A DNA stretch of 64,000 bases from Armatimonadetes bacterium 55-13 (GTDB taxonomy: Bacteria > Armatimonadota > Fimbriimonadia > Fimbriimonadales > Fimbriimonadaceae). Below, piece by piece: positions 6,443 through 18,620 of this stretch (the first letter of the stretch is position 1; each line of letters starts with the position of its first letter). The stretch is taken from assembly GCA_001898035.1 (NCBI GenBank), contig MKRX01000001.1, forward strand, positions 55,618-119,617. The letters are read 5' to 3'. The notes under the pieces were generated by a model. It saw nothing but the letters and a program-made list of their open reading frames with translations, made no database searches and was not told the origin of the DNA. A program made the position numbers and the translations under genes.

Positions 6443-7471
6443 TTAGTAGTGGAGGTGAGAGGTTTTGACCTTTCCTCGGAAGACGGTATAGATGGCCACC
6501 GTATATGCCAGGACGAGGGGCATGCCGAGGAGGGCGATGCTGAGCATGGTGGTCAGCGTGGCTTCCGAGGCAGATGCGTTGAATGCGGTGAGGGAGTAAT
6601 CCGGATTGATGTCTGATGGCACCAAGTTGGGATACATGCCCAGACCGAAGAGGGACATAAGAAGCACGATGCTCAGGCAGCTAAAGAGAAAGGCAAGATG
6701 CTCTTTTCCCCGGCTCATCTCTCGAGGCACATTGGCGATGGAGAGAAGCGAGGCGAGGGGGAGGAGGAACAGCCAAGGCTGCTGCCGGATCTTTTCCGCC
6801 ATATGCGGGGCGAAGATGAAGGTGGCGATGGTAACGGCACCATAGCAGACGCCAAAGAAGATCATGGATGACTTCACCCACTTCTTGGCTTCGGCTTGGA
6901 GCTCGCCTTCGGTCTTCATCACGAGGTAGATCGCCCCGTGCATCGCGAAGAGAGACACCGTGGTGACGCCTACGATGAGGGCGTAGGGGTTGAGGAGATT
7001 GAAGAATCCGCCCGCGTATTCCTTGTCGGCGCCGACCGGGATGCCGATGACGATGTTGCCGAGAGCGACGCCCATGAGGAGGGCGATCACGATACTGGCG
7101 ATGGCAAAGCTCCGATCCCAGAAGGAGCGCCATTTGGTCGAGGGCTCCTTGCTTCGGAATTCGATGGCGACGGCCCGGAAGATGAGGCCCGCCAGCAAGA
7201 GCATGAGGGGCAGGTAGAAGCCCGAGAAGACGGTGGCGTAGACATCGGGGAAGGCGGCGAACAGGGCGCCACCACCGACGACGAGCCAGACTTCGTTTCC
7301 GTCCCACACGGGACCAATGGAGTTCAAGAGGATGCGTCGGTTCTGGTCTCCCTTGGAAAAGAGCAGCAAGCTGCCGACGCCAAGGTCGAATCCGTCCAAG
7401 ATGGCGTATCCGGCGAGGAGGACGCCTACGAGAAGGAACCAGACGATGTGGAGATCGAAGGGATAGTTCAT
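6443..7471 (-). CDS. cydB: Cytochrome bd ubiquinol oxidase subunit II
   Basis: The 342-residue, very hydrophobic protein begins with the conserved CydB start YPFDLHIVWFLLVGVLLAGYAILDGFDLG and has the typical WDGNEVWL motif near residue 57 and about eight or nine membrane helices. Subunit II supports haem insertion and folding of the quinol oxidase. Its ATG overlaps the cydA stop (ATGA at 7468-7471). The bd oxidase reduces oxygen with high affinity and without proton pumping. With mqnA elsewhere in the window, menaquinol is a likely electron donor. No cydX or cydCD gene is seen nearby. Confidence 0.95.
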   Translation of the reverse strand: MNYPFDLHIVWFLLVGVLLAGYAILDGFDLGVGSLLLFSKGDQNRRILLNSIGPVWDGNEVWLVVGGGALFAAFPDVYATVFSGFYLPLMLLLAGLIFRAVAIEFRSKEPSTKWRSFWDRSFAIASIVIALLMGVALGNIVIGIPVGADKEYAGGFFNLLNPYALIVGVTTVSLFAMHGAIYLVMKTEGELQAEAKKWVKSSMIFFGVCYGAVTIATFIFAPHMAEKIRQQPWLFLLPLASLLSIANVPREMSRGKEHLAFLFSCLSIVLLMSLFGLGMYPNLVPSDINPDYSLTAFNASASEATLTTMLSIALLGMPLVLAYTVAIYTVFRGKVKTSHLHY

Positions 7472-11267: not shown

Positions 11268-12692
11268 ATGAACACCATCCTTCCCTTTATCGCTTTCGCT
11301 GCCGCCGCCGCTGCCTTAATTCTCTCGCCGCCGGTCGAGCCCAAACCGACAAAGGGTGGATTTATCCATGGCATTGTTCTGATTCTGATTGCTTTAGGGG
11401 CCGGATACTACTGGCGGAATGACTACGCCAATCTGCTGCCTGCGGCGATTGCTTTCTCGATCGGAATCGGGGTGGCGGGCCTTTGCGGTTTTGTCGAGCG
11501 AATCAAAGTTGGCTCGGGAGCGGCGGCAGCGGGACTTGGCGCGGGTCTCGCGGGATTAGCGAATTGGGTGGATAGTTCCTATCTCTCGATGGTGCAACTC
11601 GCGTTGATCGCGGGGTTGTCGCTCGGAGCATGGTGCTTTGCCACCAATGAGAAAGGAAAGCTAAGTTTGCCCTTGGCAACGGCGCTTTTCGGATCAGTGT
11701 TCCTGGCGGCGGACTTCATGGGTGGCAAAGCGCTGTCTAACGAGCCGGGCGCCCACTTTGGATCCACATTGGGGTTGGCGGTGGCGATCGCAGGACTGAT
11801 CGGATTGGCCGCGGGCCGAAGCGAGAAACGCCAAGACGGCGGTCTGCCCTTTCTTGCCGGTTGGTTGACGGTGATCCTTTTGGTAGCGTTGGGCTACGCG
11901 GTAGGAGCGCGTTATCTGGACAGCAAGGAATCTTGGATGATCTTTTGCGGTTCCGTGGTGATCGCCGCCATCTTGAACTGGGTCATTCGACCGACTGGGC
12001 AAGACGATGCGTTGGCGTTTTTGATGTCGGCAGTCATCTGGATAGGAGTCGCAACGCTGGCATTCTCCTATTCCCGAGGGTTCGGCATGACGATCGCTCT
12101 GGTGGGGGCGATTTCGACACTCCTCTTGATTGGTAATGTCCGAGCGCTTCTGAGCGCAGGGCCGCTCTTGGGACTGGTGTTCTATCGCGTTCTCCGAGAA
12201 GCCTTTCCGGCGGCGACGCGGGCTTTGGACATAGGTCAGCACTATGCGGTCATCGGATTGGCGTTCGGATTGACCTTAGCGCTTTTGCCGGTGGATTGGT
12301 TGAAACTGCGTTCTCGGCTCACAGGATTGGCGCCGTGGGGGCGTGCTTTGTGGGTGATCGCGCTTTGCTTACTCCCCGTTGGACTCTCCGTGGTTTTAGG
12401 AGCGAAAGGCATGGTGGGATTTGTTGCTGGGCTGGGGTTCGCGGCTTTGATTGAAGGGATTCGAAACGGTTCCAGCCTCATTCCTCTCGTTTTGGCATCT
12501 GCTCTGGCGGCAATGACGACGGTGAGTTATGGCTGGTTGACGAATCTGCTCGACCTAACGCGCGAGACGAAGCAGACGGCATTTTATTGGATTGGCGGTA
12601 CGGCGTTGGTCTTGGCGATTTTGATCGCCTCGGTATCAAAAGCCGACCCGACGACTTCGGAGTCCAGCGACTCCGCTATGGATGTGAGATGA
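11268..12692 (+). CDS. Polytopic membrane protein of unknown family (macroglobulin operon)
   Basis: I choose ATG 11268; the frame is open for 33 codons upstream, but those residues are hydrophilic and the hydrophobic part starts exactly at MNTILPFIAFAAAAAALIL. The 474-residue product has roughly 13 to 15 hydrophobic segments rich in Gly, Ala and Leu, with short loops (for example RPTGQDDALAF) and no recognised motif. Its stop overlaps the start of the alpha-2-macroglobulin gene (ATGA), so the two are probably made together. A 7-bp inverted repeat (11161-11167 with 11182-11188) lies in the leader. A transport or scaffold role is possible but is only inference. Confidence 0.75.
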   Translation: MNTILPFIAFAAAAAALILSPPVEPKPTKGGFIHGIVLILIALGAGYYWRNDYANLLPAAIAFSIGIGVAGLCGFVERIKVGSGAAAAGLGAGLAGLANWVDSSYLSMVQLALIAGLSLGAWCFATNEKGKLSLPLATALFGSVFLAADFMGGKALSNEPGAHFGSTLGLAVAIAGLIGLAAGRSEKRQDGGLPFLAGWLTVILLVALGYAVGARYLDSKESWMIFCGSVVIAAILNWVIRPTGQDDALAFLMSAVIWIGVATLAFSYSRGFGMTIALVGAISTLLLIGNVRALLSAGPLLGLVFYRVLREAFPAATRALDIGQHYAVIGLAFGLTLALLPVDWLKLRSRLTGLAPWGRALWVIALCLLPVGLSVVLGAKGMVGFVAGLGFAALIEGIRNGSSLIPLVLASALAAMTTVSYGWLTNLLDLTRETKQTAFYWIGGTALVLAILIASVSKADPTTSESSDSAMDVR

Positions 12693-15600
12693 AGGCTTCA
12701 ACCACACGGGCAGCAGTTTCCACGAAGCTGATTGGGCTTCTGGCGGCGGCGGGTATCGCCGGAGCATTGATGGCATTTGGCATCACCGAAGAAGTGCCGT
12801 TGGGTGGCTTGTCCGGCAAAGCGGTGATGAAAGAGAATGGCAAGCCGCTGGAGGGCGTGACCATTCAGATTGCCCCGCCGGAAGACATGTCCCATGAATA
12901 TGTGCGCCAACGGACCGTCGAGACAGATGAGGATGGCCGATTCAATATCAGAAATTTGCCCGCCGGAACTTATACGGTATGGGCTTACACGCGGGCGCAC
13001 CGATTGGAGAGTCAGTTGCTCACCATTGAAGAGGGCAAGCCGACGGCCGTCGAACTGACTCTGATGCCGGAGGACCCCTACCTTAACTTCAACACAAGCC
13101 AACGGGTATTTCTTCCCTCGGAGCAATCGACCTTCCAACTGGATGGCTTTTTGCCAGACGACGAAATGGGAATCGATGTTTATAAACTCGATCTTGATGG
13201 AATCGTTAAGAAGGGCAGCGTCTCCGAGTTGTTGCGTTCTTTCGCGCGATATGACGGCACGTTTGGCGACCCTAGCAAGTTTGGTTCAAAGGTCCGGCAT
13301 TTGGACTACCGGATCACCAAGCGAGACGCGGAGGGTGTGTTTGTAGAAGGTGTGGCGCTCGACCCGCTTCCAGAAGGATTTTACTGGGTGCAATGCAGGT
13401 CGGGAAAGGTCAACCGAGGCGGATTTATCAATGTCTCGAAGATTGGCTTGGTTACCAAGTCCGGGGCCAAGCGGGGACTCTGCTTTGTGACCGATTTGAG
13501 CACGGGCGCTCCCGTTGACGGCGCCGATCTATCCTTAGCGGTGAACGGAGGGATGAAGTCGCTTGGGAAGGCGAGTCCGGATGGAACTCTCTCCTTCGAT
13601 TTGCCGGATGCCGACCGCAATCTGGTGATGGCACGAAAAGGGAGTTCTGTCGCGGTCGTCGATTTCTACAGCAGTAGTAACGACGACGAAGGGGCGGGCT
13701 CGGGTCGGATCTTTATGTACTCCGATCGCCCGATCTATAAACCCGGCGATTTGGTTCAGTTCAAGGGCATCGCGCGAAAACTCGCGGGAGTTGATTTCCA
13801 AGTTCCGAATGGCGGAACGATGACGGGTGAACTGCGCGATCCAGACGACAACTTGGTCCAGACCTTCAACCTTCCGGTCTCGAGTCGAGGAACGTTTTCT
13901 GGCAAATTCACCACGAATAAGGAAGCCAAGCCGGGGTTCTACACCCTTTTGATGAGCGGTCCGGGTGGCAAGGGAAGCATGACGGTCAATCTGGCCGCGT
14001 ATCGGAAGCCGGAGTTTAAGATCACGGTTACGCCCGAGCAGAACTTCTATGTGTTTGGGAATCGGGTTCGGATGAAGGTGAAGTGCGAATACTACTTCGG
14101 CGGACCGGTCGTGGGGGCCGAACTGACCGCTTACGTCTCTCGCGCTCCTCATTGGTCATGGACCGATGAAGAGGGCGAGGAGTACTACGACGAAAGCGGA
14201 AGCGGCGAAGGCATCGACAATCTGGAGGCGGTGACCGACGACAATGGCGAGGCGGTGATTGAGTTCGATACCGAGCGACCGAAGGAAGATCAACAGTATT
14301 CGTATTACGGGGATTCGGACTTTGACTACACGATGATGGTGTCTGCCAAGGAGGCGGACAAGTACTTCGACGGCCAAGGGCGAGTGTTGGTCACTCGTGG
14401 AGACTTTGCCATTTCGGCAGATACCTCGGAGTACATCGGCCAGGTTGGATCGCCGGTGGATGTGGAAGTCACCGCGGTTTCGCACATCGACAAGAAGCCT
14501 CTATCTGGGAAGCAGATTCAGATCATTGCGGGCAAGGAAAGTTGGGAGAGCGATAAAGAGCGATTCTCGCCCACTGAAACCTTTAACGCGACGACGGGTC
14601 CAGATGGTGTAGCAAAGATTACATACACCCCGAAGGACTCGGGATCGGTGATGTTCAAGACGGTAGCGATAGACGACCACAAGAACAAGATCGAAACTCA
14701 GGCTTACCTATACGTGGAGGGCTCCGGAGCGCCAGCAAGGCCAGGTGGCAAGCTGACTGTGCAACTCGACAAGCGCGATTACCATCTTGGAGACACCGTA
14801 AAAGCGTTGATCCAGACCGACAAGCCGGGTGGGTTCGCCCTCCTTACGGTAGAGGCGGACGAAGTGCTCTATCGCAAGGTGGTGAATCTTACTAAGTCGG
14901 TGACAATCGAATCCATGATGGTCGAGCGTCCGTTCGCACCCAACGCTCGGGTGTCGGTGGCGTATATCCGGGACAAGCAGTTCTATGAAGCGACCGACGA
15001 TCTCAAGATCGACCTCGTTCAGCAGAAGCTTAAGATTCAGATCAAGCCGGATCGAGACGTTCTGCAACCGGGTCAGACAGTGAACTACGAAATAACGACC
15101 ACGGATTTGGAGGGGAAGCCGGTCGCAGCGGATCTTTCTCTCGGGGTGGTCGATGAATCGATCTACGCGATTCGGGAGGACGATACCGATCCCTACAAAG
15201 GCTTCTTCCCGCGGAGGTACATCAACGTCCAAACCAGTTACTCGTTCCCGGAAATCTATCTGGACGGCGGGGACAAGGCGGGCGGGAACATCCCGATTCG
15301 ATCCAAGTTTGCGGATACGGCGTACTGGAACCCGGAAATTCACACCGACGTCAACGGTCAGGCGCGAGTGGCGGTGGCGCTGCCCGACAACCTGACGGCC
15401 TGGAGGGCGACGGTGGTAGGTGCGACGGACGCCACGGCGGTGGGGATCTCGACGAATCTGATCACGGCTCAGAAGCCGCTCATGATTCGATTGGAGACGC
15501 CCGCCTTCATGGTTGCACAGGATGAGCAGACGATTTCGGCGATCGTTCAGAACAATACGGGACAGGATTCAGACGTGACCGTTCGGATCAATACCAGTGG

Positions 15601-17383
15601 TTTGTCTTTGGATGGATCGGAGAACCAGACGGTTCGAATTGGGAATGGCGAGCGCAAGACCATCGAATGGAAAGCAACCGCGCAGAAGACTGGTGTAGCG
15701 GACGTTACAGCTACGGCAGAGGTCACCAATGGGGCTAATGACGGCGTAAAGCACACGATTCCGATTAAGCCTCATGGCCGTGAATTCCAAGACCTGGAGT
15801 CGGGCATGGTGAAAGGAACCGCCAAGTTCGAGATGGTGGTTCGGGATGGCGCCGATGCGAATACGGGCAGGCTCGTATTGAGCTTAAGCCCGTCGATCGC
15901 GACGACTCTTGTACAGTCGCTGGACAGCTTGGTCGAGTATCCGTACGGATGCGTGGAGCAGACGATGAGTCGGTTCTTGCCGGCGATATTGGTCGACAAG
16001 GCGTTGGCGGAGACCGGGCTTTCCCGTCCCGATCTCCACGCTAAGGTTCCGGGGATTGCGGCCGACGGGTTGGCGAGATTGGCGAAGATGCAGCACGGCG
16101 ACGGCGGCTGGGGCTGGTGGGAGTACGACAACTCCGATCCGTTCATGACGGCCCTCGTTTTAGATGGCCTCCGGCGTGCGAAGCAAGCGGGATACCCCGT
16201 AAGCGAAGTAATGCTGAATCGAGGATTGGACTGGGCGGATCGGCGATTCGATTCGGAGAACAAGAAGACCGATCGCCAACGAGACTTGGTCTACCTTTGC
16301 TATGCAATGGCCACGAACGGCCGCATTGAGAACGCGACCAAGCGGTTTGCCTTCGATTTCAGCAATGCCGGAGCATCTGACCTCGCGTTGGGAGCGATGA
16401 CGGCCAATATGCTTGGACCTAATTACGTGGCGCAACGCGATCAGCTAATGGGCAAGTTGAAGGCCATGGCGGTAGTAGCGGGCAGCACGGCCCGATGGGA
16501 ACCCAATCGCTACTCGTGGGGAGCAGAAAATACGGCGTTGGCTTTGACTGCGCTGGTGAAGCTGCAACCGGCTAGTGAACTGATTCCCAAGACGGTTCGC
16601 TACTTGATGTCGAGCCGACGTGGCGAATATTGGTGGAGTACCCGCGATACCGCCTATGTTTTGATCGGCATGACCGATTACCTGAAGCAAACCAAGGAAT
16701 TGGCGAGACCTGGTGGAGCGTTTACGGTTCTGCTTAACGGGAAGGAACTCAAGAAGATCGAGTTCACGCAGGCCTCATTGCTGCAACCTGATTTGCAGAT
16801 CACCGTTCCGATGTCCGGCTTGACATCTGGCAAGAACTCCATCGAAATTCAGCAGGCGGGGAATGCGGTGTGTTACTACTCCGCCGACCTCCGTCAGGTG
16901 GTCCCGGACGAACAACTTGGAATGGTCGTTAACGGCAGCGGCTTGACGGTAGAGCGCAAGTATTACCGGATGGAAGCTCGGCGGATGGAGGACGGCACGA
17001 TGCAGTTTGTGCCCAGTGAAAAGCCGGTGACGGAGGTTCATGCAGGGGATGTGATCAAGTGCGTGCTCACCGTCCGCAGCAATAAGGATCGGGAGTTTGT
17101 TTTGGTTGAAGACCCGATCCCGAGCAACTGTCACGTTACCGAACGAGACGCGCCCTATGAGGACGAGTCTTGGGGCTGGTGGTGGGCCAGCACCGTCATC
17201 TTGGAAGATCGGGTTTCGTTCTTCGCCAGGAACTTAGAGACCGGCGAGAAGGAGTTTAGCTATATCATGCGGGCAGAAGCGGACGGTAAGTCCAACGCTT
17301 TGCCAACTCGCGTGGGAAATATGTACGATCCTGACGACGTTGCCTCGGCGGGCGAATTGGAACTGAAGGTGAATCCGCGATGA
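12689..17383 (+). CDS. Bacterial alpha-2-macroglobulin with intact thioester motif
   Basis: The 1564-residue protein starts at ATG 12689, overlapping the previous stop. An N-terminal signal or anchor (about 13-32) is followed by a carboxypeptidase-regulatory/CnaB-like beta domain (about 34-125). The macroglobulin domains include the MG2-type motif SDRPIYKPGDLVQFKG near 345, and the A2M segment AYWNPEIHTDVNGQARVAV lies near 875. A helical thioester domain with PYGCVEQT follows; Cys1088 and Gln1091 would form the internal thioester. A beta-rich C-terminal part follows from about 1390. Such proteins trap proteases in the periplasm, protecting the envelope. In enterobacteria the usual partner is PBP1C (pbpC). 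Here the partners are a polytopic membrane protein and a VanW protein, overlapping at both ends. Confidence 0.92.
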   Translation: MKASTTRAAVSTKLIGLLAAAGIAGALMAFGITEEVPLGGLSGKAVMKENGKPLEGVTIQIAPPEDMSHEYVRQRTVETDEDGRFNIRNLPAGTYTVWAYTRAHRLESQLLTIEEGKPTAVELTLMPEDPYLNFNTSQRVFLPSEQSTFQLDGFLPDDEMGIDVYKLDLDGIVKKGSVSELLRSFARYDGTFGDPSKFGSKVRHLDYRITKRDAEGVFVEGVALDPLPEGFYWVQCRSGKVNRGGFINVSKIGLVTKSGAKRGLCFVTDLSTGAPVDGADLSLAVNGGMKSLGKASPDGTLSFDLPDADRNLVMARKGSSVAVVDFYSSSNDDEGAGSGRIFMYSDRPIYKPGDLVQFKGIARKLAGVDFQVPNGGTMTGELRDPDDNLVQTFNLPVSSRGTFSGKFTTNKEAKPGFYTLLMSGPGGKGSMTVNLAAYRKPEFKITVTPEQNFYVFGNRVRMKVKCEYYFGGPVVGAELTAYVSRAPHWSWTDEEGEEYYDESGSGEGIDNLEAVTDDNGEAVIEFDTERPKEDQQYSYYGDSDFDYTMMVSAKEADKYFDGQGRVLVTRGDFAISADTSEYIGQVGSPVDVEVTAVSHIDKKPLSGKQIQIIAGKESWESDKERFSPTETFNATTGPDGVAKITYTPKDSGSVMFKTVAIDDHKNKIETQAYLYVEGSGAPARPGGKLTVQLDKRDYHLGDTVKALIQTDKPGGFALLTVEADEVLYRKVVNLTKSVTIESMMVERPFAPNARVSVAYIRDKQFYEATDDLKIDLVQQKLKIQIKPDRDVLQPGQTVNYEITTTDLEGKPVAADLSLGVVDESIYAIREDDTDPYKGFFPRRYINVQTSYSFPEIYLDGGDKAGGNIPIRSKFADTAYWNPEIHTDVNGQARVAVALPDNLTAWRATVVGATDATAVGISTNLITAQKPLMIRLETPAFMVAQDEQTISAIVQNNTGQDSDVTVRINTSGLSLDGSENQTVRIGNGERKTIEWKATAQKTGVADVTATAEVTNGANDGVKHTIPIKPHGREFQDLESGMVKGTAKFEMVVRDGADANTGRLVLSLSPSIATTLVQSLDSLVEYPYGCVEQTMSRFLPAILVDKALAETGLSRPDLHAKVPGIAADGLARLAKMQHGDGGWGWWEYDNSDPFMTALVLDGLRRAKQAGYPVSEVMLNRGLDWADRRFDSENKKTDRQRDLVYLCYAMATNGRIENATKRFAFDFSNAGASDLALGAMTANMLGPNYVAQRDQLMGKLKAMAVVAGSTARWEPNRYSWGAENTALALTALVKLQPASELIPKTVRYLMSSRRGEYWWSTRDTAYVLIGMTDYLKQTKELARPGGAFTVLLNGKELKKIEFTQASLLQPDLQITVPMSGLTSGKNSIEIQQAGNAVCYYSADLRQVVPDEQLGMVVNGSGLTVERKYYRMEARRMEDGTMQFVPSEKPVTEVHAGDVIKCVLTVRSNKDREFVLVEDPIPSNCHVTERDAPYEDESWGWWWASTVILEDRVSFFARNLETGEKEFSYIMRAEADGKSNALPTRVGNMYDPDDVASAGELELKVNPR

Positions 17384-18114
17384 TCAAGGCAATTGGTTGG
17401 ATCTCGACGCTTGGCCTGGCGACGGCGGGAACGGTGGCGCTGATGAACGCGCCGCGGGAGCATTGCCTGGGGAGTTTCTCCACCTCCTTGGCCAAGCGAT
17501 CCAAATCGCAACGGCACAACGCATTGCTGTCGGTTCGGGAAATCGATGGCGCGGTAATTGGACCGGGGGAGACGTTCTCCTTTAACAAGCATGTGGGGTC
17601 GTTCTCGAAAGATGGTGGGTACCGGAAGGCGCCGGTCAGCTACAACGGGCAACTTATCGATAGTTTCGGAGGAGGCGTGTGTCAGACGTCGACAACGACG
17701 TATAACGCGGCCCTTCTGTCAGGCATGGAGATCGTCGAGCGGAATCGGCATCGGTTCTCGCCCAGTTATGTTTTGCCGGGACGAGATGCGGCGGTGGCTT
17801 ATTGGTCGATCGATCTCAAATTCAGAAATCCCTATTCCTTCCCGGTCAAGGTGAAGGCGGCGATCGACGGAGATCAACTGAAGGTTGGAGTCTATGGCGC
17901 CGGCGAGGGAAAAGAATGTCGGATCGTAACCGACTTGCGGCAGGTTCGCCAACCTTCCACTTTCGAAATTGGCGACCGTCGAGCGGCGGGGCGGATGCGG
18001 AACACGGGGAAGCAGGGCTACTTCGTGCAGATCTACCGGATCGCGGATGGGCAGAAGGAGTTAATCAGCAGCGACAACTATCCGGTCATGGATAAGGTGG
18101 TGGATAGACGCTAA
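17380..18114 (+). CDS. VanW family protein
   Basis: The 244-residue protein has an N-terminal hydrophobic segment (about 4-22) and a VanW domain with its hallmark residues: IGPGETFSFNKHVG, then GGYRKAPVS, and SFGGGVCQTSTTTYNAALL near 92-110, followed by HRFSPSYVLPGRDAAVAYW. VanW occurs in some vancomycin-resistance clusters and in many envelope proteins; its biochemical role is not established. The ATG overlaps the macroglobulin stop (ATGA). The single Cys in GVCQT is invariant in the family. An export role at the cell wall is inferred from the signal segment and the neighbours. There are no vanHAX genes, so resistance should not be assumed. Confidence 0.9.
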   Translation: MIKAIGWISTLGLATAGTVALMNAPREHCLGSFSTSLAKRSKSQRHNALLSVREIDGAVIGPGETFSFNKHVGSFSKDGGYRKAPVSYNGQLIDSFGGGVCQTSTTTYNAALLSGMEIVERNRHRFSPSYVLPGRDAAVAYWSIDLKFRNPYSFPVKVKAAIDGDQLKVGVYGAGEGKECRIVTDLRQVRQPSTFEIGDRRAAGRMRNTGKQGYFVQIYRIADGQKELISSDNYPVMDKVVDRR

Positions 18115-18134: not shown

Positions 18135-18620
18135 ATGCGTCGCCTTGCGATCTATCCGGGTTCGTTCGATCCGCCGACCTTGGGGCATTTGGATGTAGCC
18201 GAGCGGGCGGCACAGTTGTTTGACGAAGTTATCGTTGCGGTGGGAGTGAACTCGGCGAAGAGTCCATTTCTCACCGACGAAGAGCGAGTCGACTGCTTGA
18301 AGGAGTGTGTGAAACACCTGCCGAACGTCTCGGTGGACTCTTTCTCTGGCTTATTGGTGGATTACGTCCGGTCTAAGAGTGCACGGTCGGTTGTGAGGGG
18401 GCTTCGGGCAACCGCCGACTTCGAGTATGAGTTCCAGATGGCGATGGTGAATCGTCGTCTGGCGAGCGAAGTGGAGACGGTGTTCTTCATGACGAAGTGG
18501 GAGTACAACTACTTGACGAGCAGCATCGTTCGAGAGGTGGCGACGTTGGGTGGCGACTTCGAGACTTTGGTGCCGGGACCCGTGGCGGAGGTTATCCACC
18601 GAACATTGCGGAAAAGATAG
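18135..18620 (+). CDS. coaD: Phosphopantetheine adenylyltransferase
   Basis: The 161-residue cytoplasmic enzyme transfers AMP from ATP to 4'-phosphopantetheine, giving dephospho-CoA in CoA synthesis. The nucleotidyltransferase motif GSFDPPTLGHLD (9-20, TxGH) is present, with VRGLRATADFEYEFQMA in the middle and YNYLTSSIVRE near the C-terminus, the ISSTxxR-type motif. Length is standard. It begins 20 bases after vanW and is followed closely by a coiled-coil protein gene that also accompanies coaD in several Gram-positive lineages. Confidence 0.97.
   Translation: MRRLAIYPGSFDPPTLGHLDVAERAAQLFDEVIVAVGVNSAKSPFLTDEERVDCLKECVKHLPNVSVDSFSGLLVDYVRSKSARSVVRGLRATADFEYEFQMAMVNRRLASEVETVFFMTKWEYNYLTSSIVREVATLGGDFETLVPGPVAEVIHRTLRKR

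Follow-up and report, generated by a model that had tools for sequence, protein, structure and literature searches.

Bacterial macroglobulins of type I are protease traps that reside in the periplasm, anchored to the inner membrane, and are often encoded together with the peptidoglycan synthase PBP1C. For this pair, a joint role in trapping proteases and repairing the wall has been proposed in the literature. In Pseudomonas, a type II macroglobulin is held at the inner membrane by the protein MagB. Among L,D-transpeptidases, VanW domains are the second family to be recognised (PMC12729407, PMC11986978); in published work, some VanW proteins are without this activity (3-3 crosslinking). For membrane pyrophosphatases (M-PPases), a 2024 review gives no known homologs among ion pumps. 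Our literature search found no report in which bacterial macroglobulins are paired with VanW, with Armatimonadota, or with AMMECR1.

The locus examined here is located in a stretch of 64,000 nucleotides (the window) from Armatimonadetes bacterium 55-13. Three plus-strand genes encode a membrane protein (positions 11268 to 12692), a thioester macroglobulin (12689 to 17383), and a VanW protein (17380 to 18114). The genes are joined by two 4-bp ATGA overlaps, with the TGA stop codon of the membrane protein gene (12690 to 12692) overlapping the macroglobulin ATG at 12689, and the TGA stop codon of the macroglobulin gene (17381 to 17383) overlapping the VanW ATG at 17380. The coordinates of the open reading frames and their start and stop positions agree with the preliminary description of this region, which had reported three genes joined in this manner. 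On the same strand, 20 bp 3ˊ of vanW, lies coaD (18135 to 18620), which encodes phosphopantetheine adenylyltransferase as judged by its CTP_transf_like domain (Pfam). This gene is outside the conserved unit because no coaD adjoins the trio in relatives, including those of the same genus. Beside the operon on the minus strand, between positions 6443 and 10344, we noted by eye two proteins of 342 and 464 amino acids that resemble cytochrome bd oxidase subunits, as well as universal-stress-like and Hsp20-like proteins. These stress-flavoured surroundings are not conserved with the trio.

As in the yfhM-pbpC operon of E. coli and with Sa-A2M of Salmonella, a macroglobulin carrying a thioester and a bait region, and predicted to be periplasmic, is encoded with a membrane-anchored enzyme of the kind that crosslinks peptidoglycan. 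Unlike those systems, the partner here is a VanW-type (L,D) enzyme rather than a GT51/PBP synthase, an N-terminal anchor replaces the lipobox, and an additional M-PPase-like membrane protein is present. No GT51 synthase is encoded near the locus, and the single PF00912 gene of the genome resides on another contig. The earlier statement that VanW and a membrane protein stand in place of PBP1C is therefore right for the locus. The operon thus appears to pair its macroglobulin with a peptidoglycan transpeptidase as enterobacterial PBP1C operons do, but one of other chemistry. The Mag operon of Pseudomonas (MagD with MagA, MagB, and MagF) likewise provides a macroglobulin with operon partners, of which MagB holds MagD at the inner membrane. 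However, MagD lacks the thioester that is present here, neither VanW nor the M-PPase-like protein is related to the Mag partners, and a Pfam search revealed no Mag-type partner domains among the operon neighbours. The pairing of a macroglobulin with a wall enzyme is known, and this locus appears to be a new form of it, with an unexpected M-PPase-derived component. We favour the view, at a probability of roughly 0.55, that the operon encodes an inner-membrane, periplasm-facing module for defence and repair, composed of a protease trap, a wall repair enzyme, and a membrane scaffold.

Conservation of the trio was assessed by searching 101 relatives and an even sample of 201 genomes across the phylum, and by joining the coordinates of the matches. 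This gene-neighbourhood survey, a check that the preliminary description had proposed, revealed the complete ordered trio in 51 of the 201 phylum genomes, representing 18 families. The macroglobulin gene is followed directly by vanW in 71 genomes of the same sample (25 families), and the membrane protein occurs in 77, directly upstream of the macroglobulin in 64 of them. The other 13 membrane protein matches do not lie ahead of a macroglobulin; several of these are on short contigs, and in genome G195 the cluster is retained with its genes in the order macroglobulin, VanW, membrane protein. Within the family to which the window belongs, 42 genomes carry both the macroglobulin and an operon-type VanW, 18 carry neither, and the one exception (G053) carries only a macroglobulin gene that is cut by a contig end. 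This pattern of co-presence or co-loss yields a Fisher value of 1.4e-14, uncorrected for kinship. Four genera (g10, g15, g16, and g24) each include members with and without the unit, and it must therefore have been lost or gained whole several times. In addition, gene maps of 60 regions show the trio, mostly with 4-bp overlaps, amid changing flanks that differ even inside the genus. Chance or hitchhiking synteny is rejected on the basis of the varying flanks and the co-loss, and co-occurrence together with synteny establishes the trio as a conserved operonic unit far beyond chance.

The association of macroglobulin and VanW extends to other phyla. Among 80 macroglobulin loci of many phyla, VanW adjoins the macroglobulin in 20, and outside Armatimonadota such adjacency is found in Obscuribacterales, Omnitrophota, Geobacteraceae, and Bacillota MAGs. 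Comparison with named loci places the window close to Fimbriimonadaceae of the Armatimonadota. We inspected nine VanW-linked loci from these groups and from one member of Armatimonadota (L101) that have no M-PPase-like gene directly upstream. Eight of the nine (L108, L119, L123, L136, L153, L101, L111, and L135) carry, just upstream of the macroglobulin, an AMMECR1-domain gene whose product has an apparent N-terminal export signal, and the same arrangement was recognised by motif at L078, also from Armatimonadota. Many macroglobulin genes in Acidobacteriota and Chloroflexota have no adjacent VanW and, as a rule, no GT51 synthase either. On a tree computed from the A2M/TED region, the VanW label requires 12 changes, at least nine of which are forced by well-supported branches, and the pairing has therefore repeatedly been acquired or lost. 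What recurs is a core of macroglobulin and VanW, with an exchangeable third partner. These observations bear on the proposal that inheritance alone keeps the three genes side by side and that they share no function, for which we found nothing beyond its general possibility. It is made exceedingly improbable by flanks that change within a genus while the trio stays, by co-loss in several genera, by the reordered cluster of G195, and by the adjacency of macroglobulin and VanW in other phyla.

The macroglobulin (1564 amino acids) is classed from its sequence as a type I protein on the basis of a CxEQ thioester in the TED and the presence of a bait region and MG domains. Pfam domains include MG2, A2M_BRD (the bait region, 7.6e-19), A2M, TED (TED_complement), and bMG10, with bMG3 falling below the cut-off, and a CarboxypepD_reg (carboxypeptidase-regulatory-like) domain is located at the N-terminus. 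The protein has a single N-terminal hydrophobic anchor and no lipobox cysteine, and sequence matches link it to the solved structures of YfhM (E. coli) and of the other bacterial A2M. The preliminary description had placed a CVEQ thioester at residues 1088 to 1091 (codons at 15950 to 15961, plus strand), and this assignment holds, with C1088, E1090, and Q1091 invariant in an alignment of 12 relatives (A1). The GCxEQ sequence is kept in nearly all operonic macroglobulins. Two macroglobulins that adjoin VanW, those of L076 and L078, lack CxEQ, and the unit may thus persist without covalent trapping. A second macroglobulin paralogue, found in the genome of the window (L090, G000:C26) and in another (L092, G055), has neither a CxEQ thioester nor a VanW or membrane protein partner.

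The few operonic macroglobulins without a thioester, along with the wide conservation of the module in environmental bacteria that have no known hosts, are also compatible with a function in ordinary wall maturation or in the mechanical linking of envelope layers, in which the macroglobulin would be structural or chaperone-like and trapping would be secondary. The trap-and-repair explanation is weakened by those same copies, by the absence of any link between the trio and a particular stress, by the published VanW proteins without L,D-transpeptidase activity, by the lack of a PG4 domain in the VanW protein, and by the many macroglobulin genes of Acidobacteriota and Chloroflexota that stand without such partners. 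However, nearly all operonic copies retain the thioester and the bait-region domain, and the disappearance of the entire trio from several genera speaks against a housekeeping role, so we regard this alternative as unlikely.

The VanW protein (244 amino acids) comprises an anchor helix (residues 2 to 22), a VanW catalytic domain (44 to 172), and a G5-like domain (178 to 244), as indicated by Pfam and an AF2 model with a pLDDT of 91.6 that displays the same three parts. Its match to PF04294 (1.4e-44) scores 151 bits relative to a curated cut-off of 27. The catalytic stretch from Cys101 to Asp136 (CQTSTT...ERNRH...GRD) is encoded at positions 17680 to 17787 of the plus strand. Cys101, Gln102, His124, and Asp136 are invariant in all 42 VanW proteins encoded directly after a macroglobulin, and Cys101, His124, and Asp136 are likewise invariant in 19 of 19 VanW proteins from several phyla, including Obscuribacterales. 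The top PDB matches for residues 178 to 244 are G5 domains of surface or wall proteins, with low Z scores that make them suggestive only, and no PDB fold match above Z 5.6 was present for residues 1 to 177 among the matches listed. LdtCd4 and LdtCd5 of Clostridioides difficile share with this protein the PF04294 domain, the catalytic Cys and His residues, and membrane anchoring. Unlike these enzymes, the VanW protein here has a G5-like C-terminus, a macroglobulin partner, and a probable diderm host, and Pfam detects in it no PG4 domain, which the characterised enzymes carry. We predict that the VanW protein is a catalytic L,D-transpeptidase and more than a wall binder. It had earlier been suggested to be the wall-binding partner of the macroglobulin; this agrees with a family that acts on peptidoglycan, as PBP1C does, but a role beyond binding is predicted, given that L,D-transpeptidase activity is assigned to VanW domains and that the catalytic residues are invariant here. 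For the same reason, it would be an enzymatic replacement for PBP1C.

Some L,D-transpeptidases are known from published work to attach proteins to peptidoglycan, and VanW could in principle covalently anchor the macroglobulin, or another protein, to the wall in the manner of Braun lipoprotein. However, our examination of the macroglobulin C-termini revealed no conserved terminal Lys residue. Lpp-like anchoring of the macroglobulin is therefore not supported, and we judge an anchoring function of this kind to be very unlikely. The same genome encodes a second, longer VanW protein and two YkuD proteins elsewhere. The second VanW gene (L091, G000:C17:7985-8368) lies in an open frame of 480 amino acids beside an opposite-strand ORF of 619 amino acids with 13 predicted spans.

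The first gene of the operon encodes a protein of 474 amino acids that has no Pfam family at E≤1 and no NCBIfam family. No PF03030 match is found by hmmscan, and its profile yields no match at E≤10 in a direct search of PDB sequences. We built an AF2 model (pLDDT 75.9, pTM 0.81) from 13 sequences, all of which come from the window or from named loci. It contains 15 helices, two of which (41 and 44 residues) are each long enough for two spans. When compared with M-PPases, the model gives a VIA Z score of about 31, with an rmsd of 3.6 to 3.9 over approximately 425 to 430 residues, and the next unrelated fold has a Z score of 8. The first 16 spans align with M-PPase.

Profile comparison by hhalign with 50 real M-PPases of the phylum also supports this relationship (Prob 95.5, P 1.5e-8, score 74.8 over 355 colinear columns), as 40 shuffles of reversed blocks score no higher than 28. 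Forward block shuffles reach 56, probably through true local matches that they retain. An earlier comparison with 20 M-PPases was weak (P 5e-4), scoring 35 against block-shuffle nulls of up to 32.8, and an end-to-end alignment (-glob) with a trimmed alignment scored 11.2 against controls of up to 14.1 and thus gave no separation. Homology to M-PPase emerges only when folds are compared or profile is aligned with profile. None of seven M-PPase motifs (DxGADxVGK, GDNVGD, GGxWDNAK, VGDPFKDT, and others) occurs in any of 48 homologues of the membrane protein, whereas the seven are present in 15 to 20 of 20 real M-PPases, and the gaps in the profile alignment coincide with the positions of the catalytic loops. 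TmPPase and VrPPase (PF03030) thus share with the membrane protein a 16-span fold and colinear profile similarity; unlike them, it has about 474 rather than at least 665 residues, no PF03030 match, none of the tested motifs, and one extra C-terminal span. We conclude that the membrane protein is a diverged M-PPase homologue without catalytic motifs. The preliminary description, which presented it as an uncharacterised protein of 13 to 15 helices, was correct that it is polytopic, but 16 to 17 spans are a better estimate, and fold and profile now relate it to M-PPases. It is not a known transporter unrelated to the envelope, an outcome that would have spoken against the module as first described.

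Application of the positive-inside rule predicts an N-out topology, with K+R values of 14.0 inside and 8.9 outside. The most conserved residues are in the C-terminal part of the protein (residues 265 to 436, approximately; positions 12060 to 12575, plus strand) and mostly on the predicted periplasmic side, and include F266/G273, R307, R318, D321-Q324-H325-Y326, K380, R432, and K435. Accordingly, conservation is among the highest in the loops that join spans 10-11, 12-13, 14-15, and 16-17 and are predicted to be periplasmic: relative entropy values for the predicted outside loops 10, 12, 14, and 16 are 2.04, 2.30, 1.39, and 1.98, compared to 0.95, 0.87, and 0.77 for the inside loops 11, 13, and 15. 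A high value is also seen for inside loop 1, where it stems from a proline and sparsely filled columns. Under the predicted topology, conservation is lacking in the counterparts of the catalytic cytosolic loops of M-PPases.

Retention of the M-PPase fold over all 16 spans, together with several conserved charged residues that are buried or capping (R307, K380, and D321), might mean that the M-PPase ion path is still in use for ion conduction or for sensing the proton-motive force, so that the state of the membrane protein, acting as a gate or sensor and not simply as a scaffold, controls VanW or the macroglobulin. We consider this quite unlikely given that all PPi motifs are gone and that conservation is centred on the predicted periplasmic caps rather than the cytosolic side. 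A further proposal, which we advance tentatively, is that the protein represents the first non-pyrophosphatase branch of the M-PPase superfamily and has been repurposed as a transducer that faces the periplasm and links the capture of proteases by the macroglobulin to wall repair by the L,D-transpeptidase.

The mechanism that we favour for the defence and repair module would operate in a diderm envelope, and two Omp85 genes in the genome point to an outer membrane in this organism. The macroglobulin would be held in the periplasm by its N-terminal anchor. Once through the outer membrane, a protease would cut the bait region, causing the TED to swing out and the Cys-Gln thioester to trap the protease. 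The membrane-anchored VanW protein, acting as an L,D-transpeptidase through Cys101 and His124 in place of PBP1C, would then re-crosslink the damaged wall without requiring new lipid II, and may bind the wall through its G5-like domain at the C-terminus. The membrane protein, as a descendant of M-PPases, would have lost the cytosolic loops that hydrolyse pyrophosphate and kept a conserved periplasmic surface, and could serve as a platform for docking or signalling between the macroglobulin and VanW, a role comparable to the one MagB has in the Mag complex. Family knowledge and intact residues point to the trap and repair roles, topology and conservation suggest the platform, and the three proteins presumably form a complex. 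The pairing of a macroglobulin with PBP1C has a counterpart that employs a predicted transpeptidase of a different class, which makes the trap-and-repair idea testable by comparison. VanW proteins also gain a defined genomic partner in diderms, and a relative of the membrane pyrophosphatases that lacks the catalytic motifs is revealed.

Nearly all of these genomes, that of the window among them, also encode real M-PPases at separate sites. Eight genomes (G106, G130, G139, G145, G172, G190, G198, and G223), some with incomplete assemblies, carry the M-PPase-like operon protein and have no PF03030 match. In the family of the window, an insertion of about 250 residues near profile position 298 breaks the PF03030 match of the real M-PPases into two pieces, and the copy in the genome of the window is located at G000:C10:86102-88912. 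In most other families of the phylum, the real M-PPase matches PF03030 in one piece.
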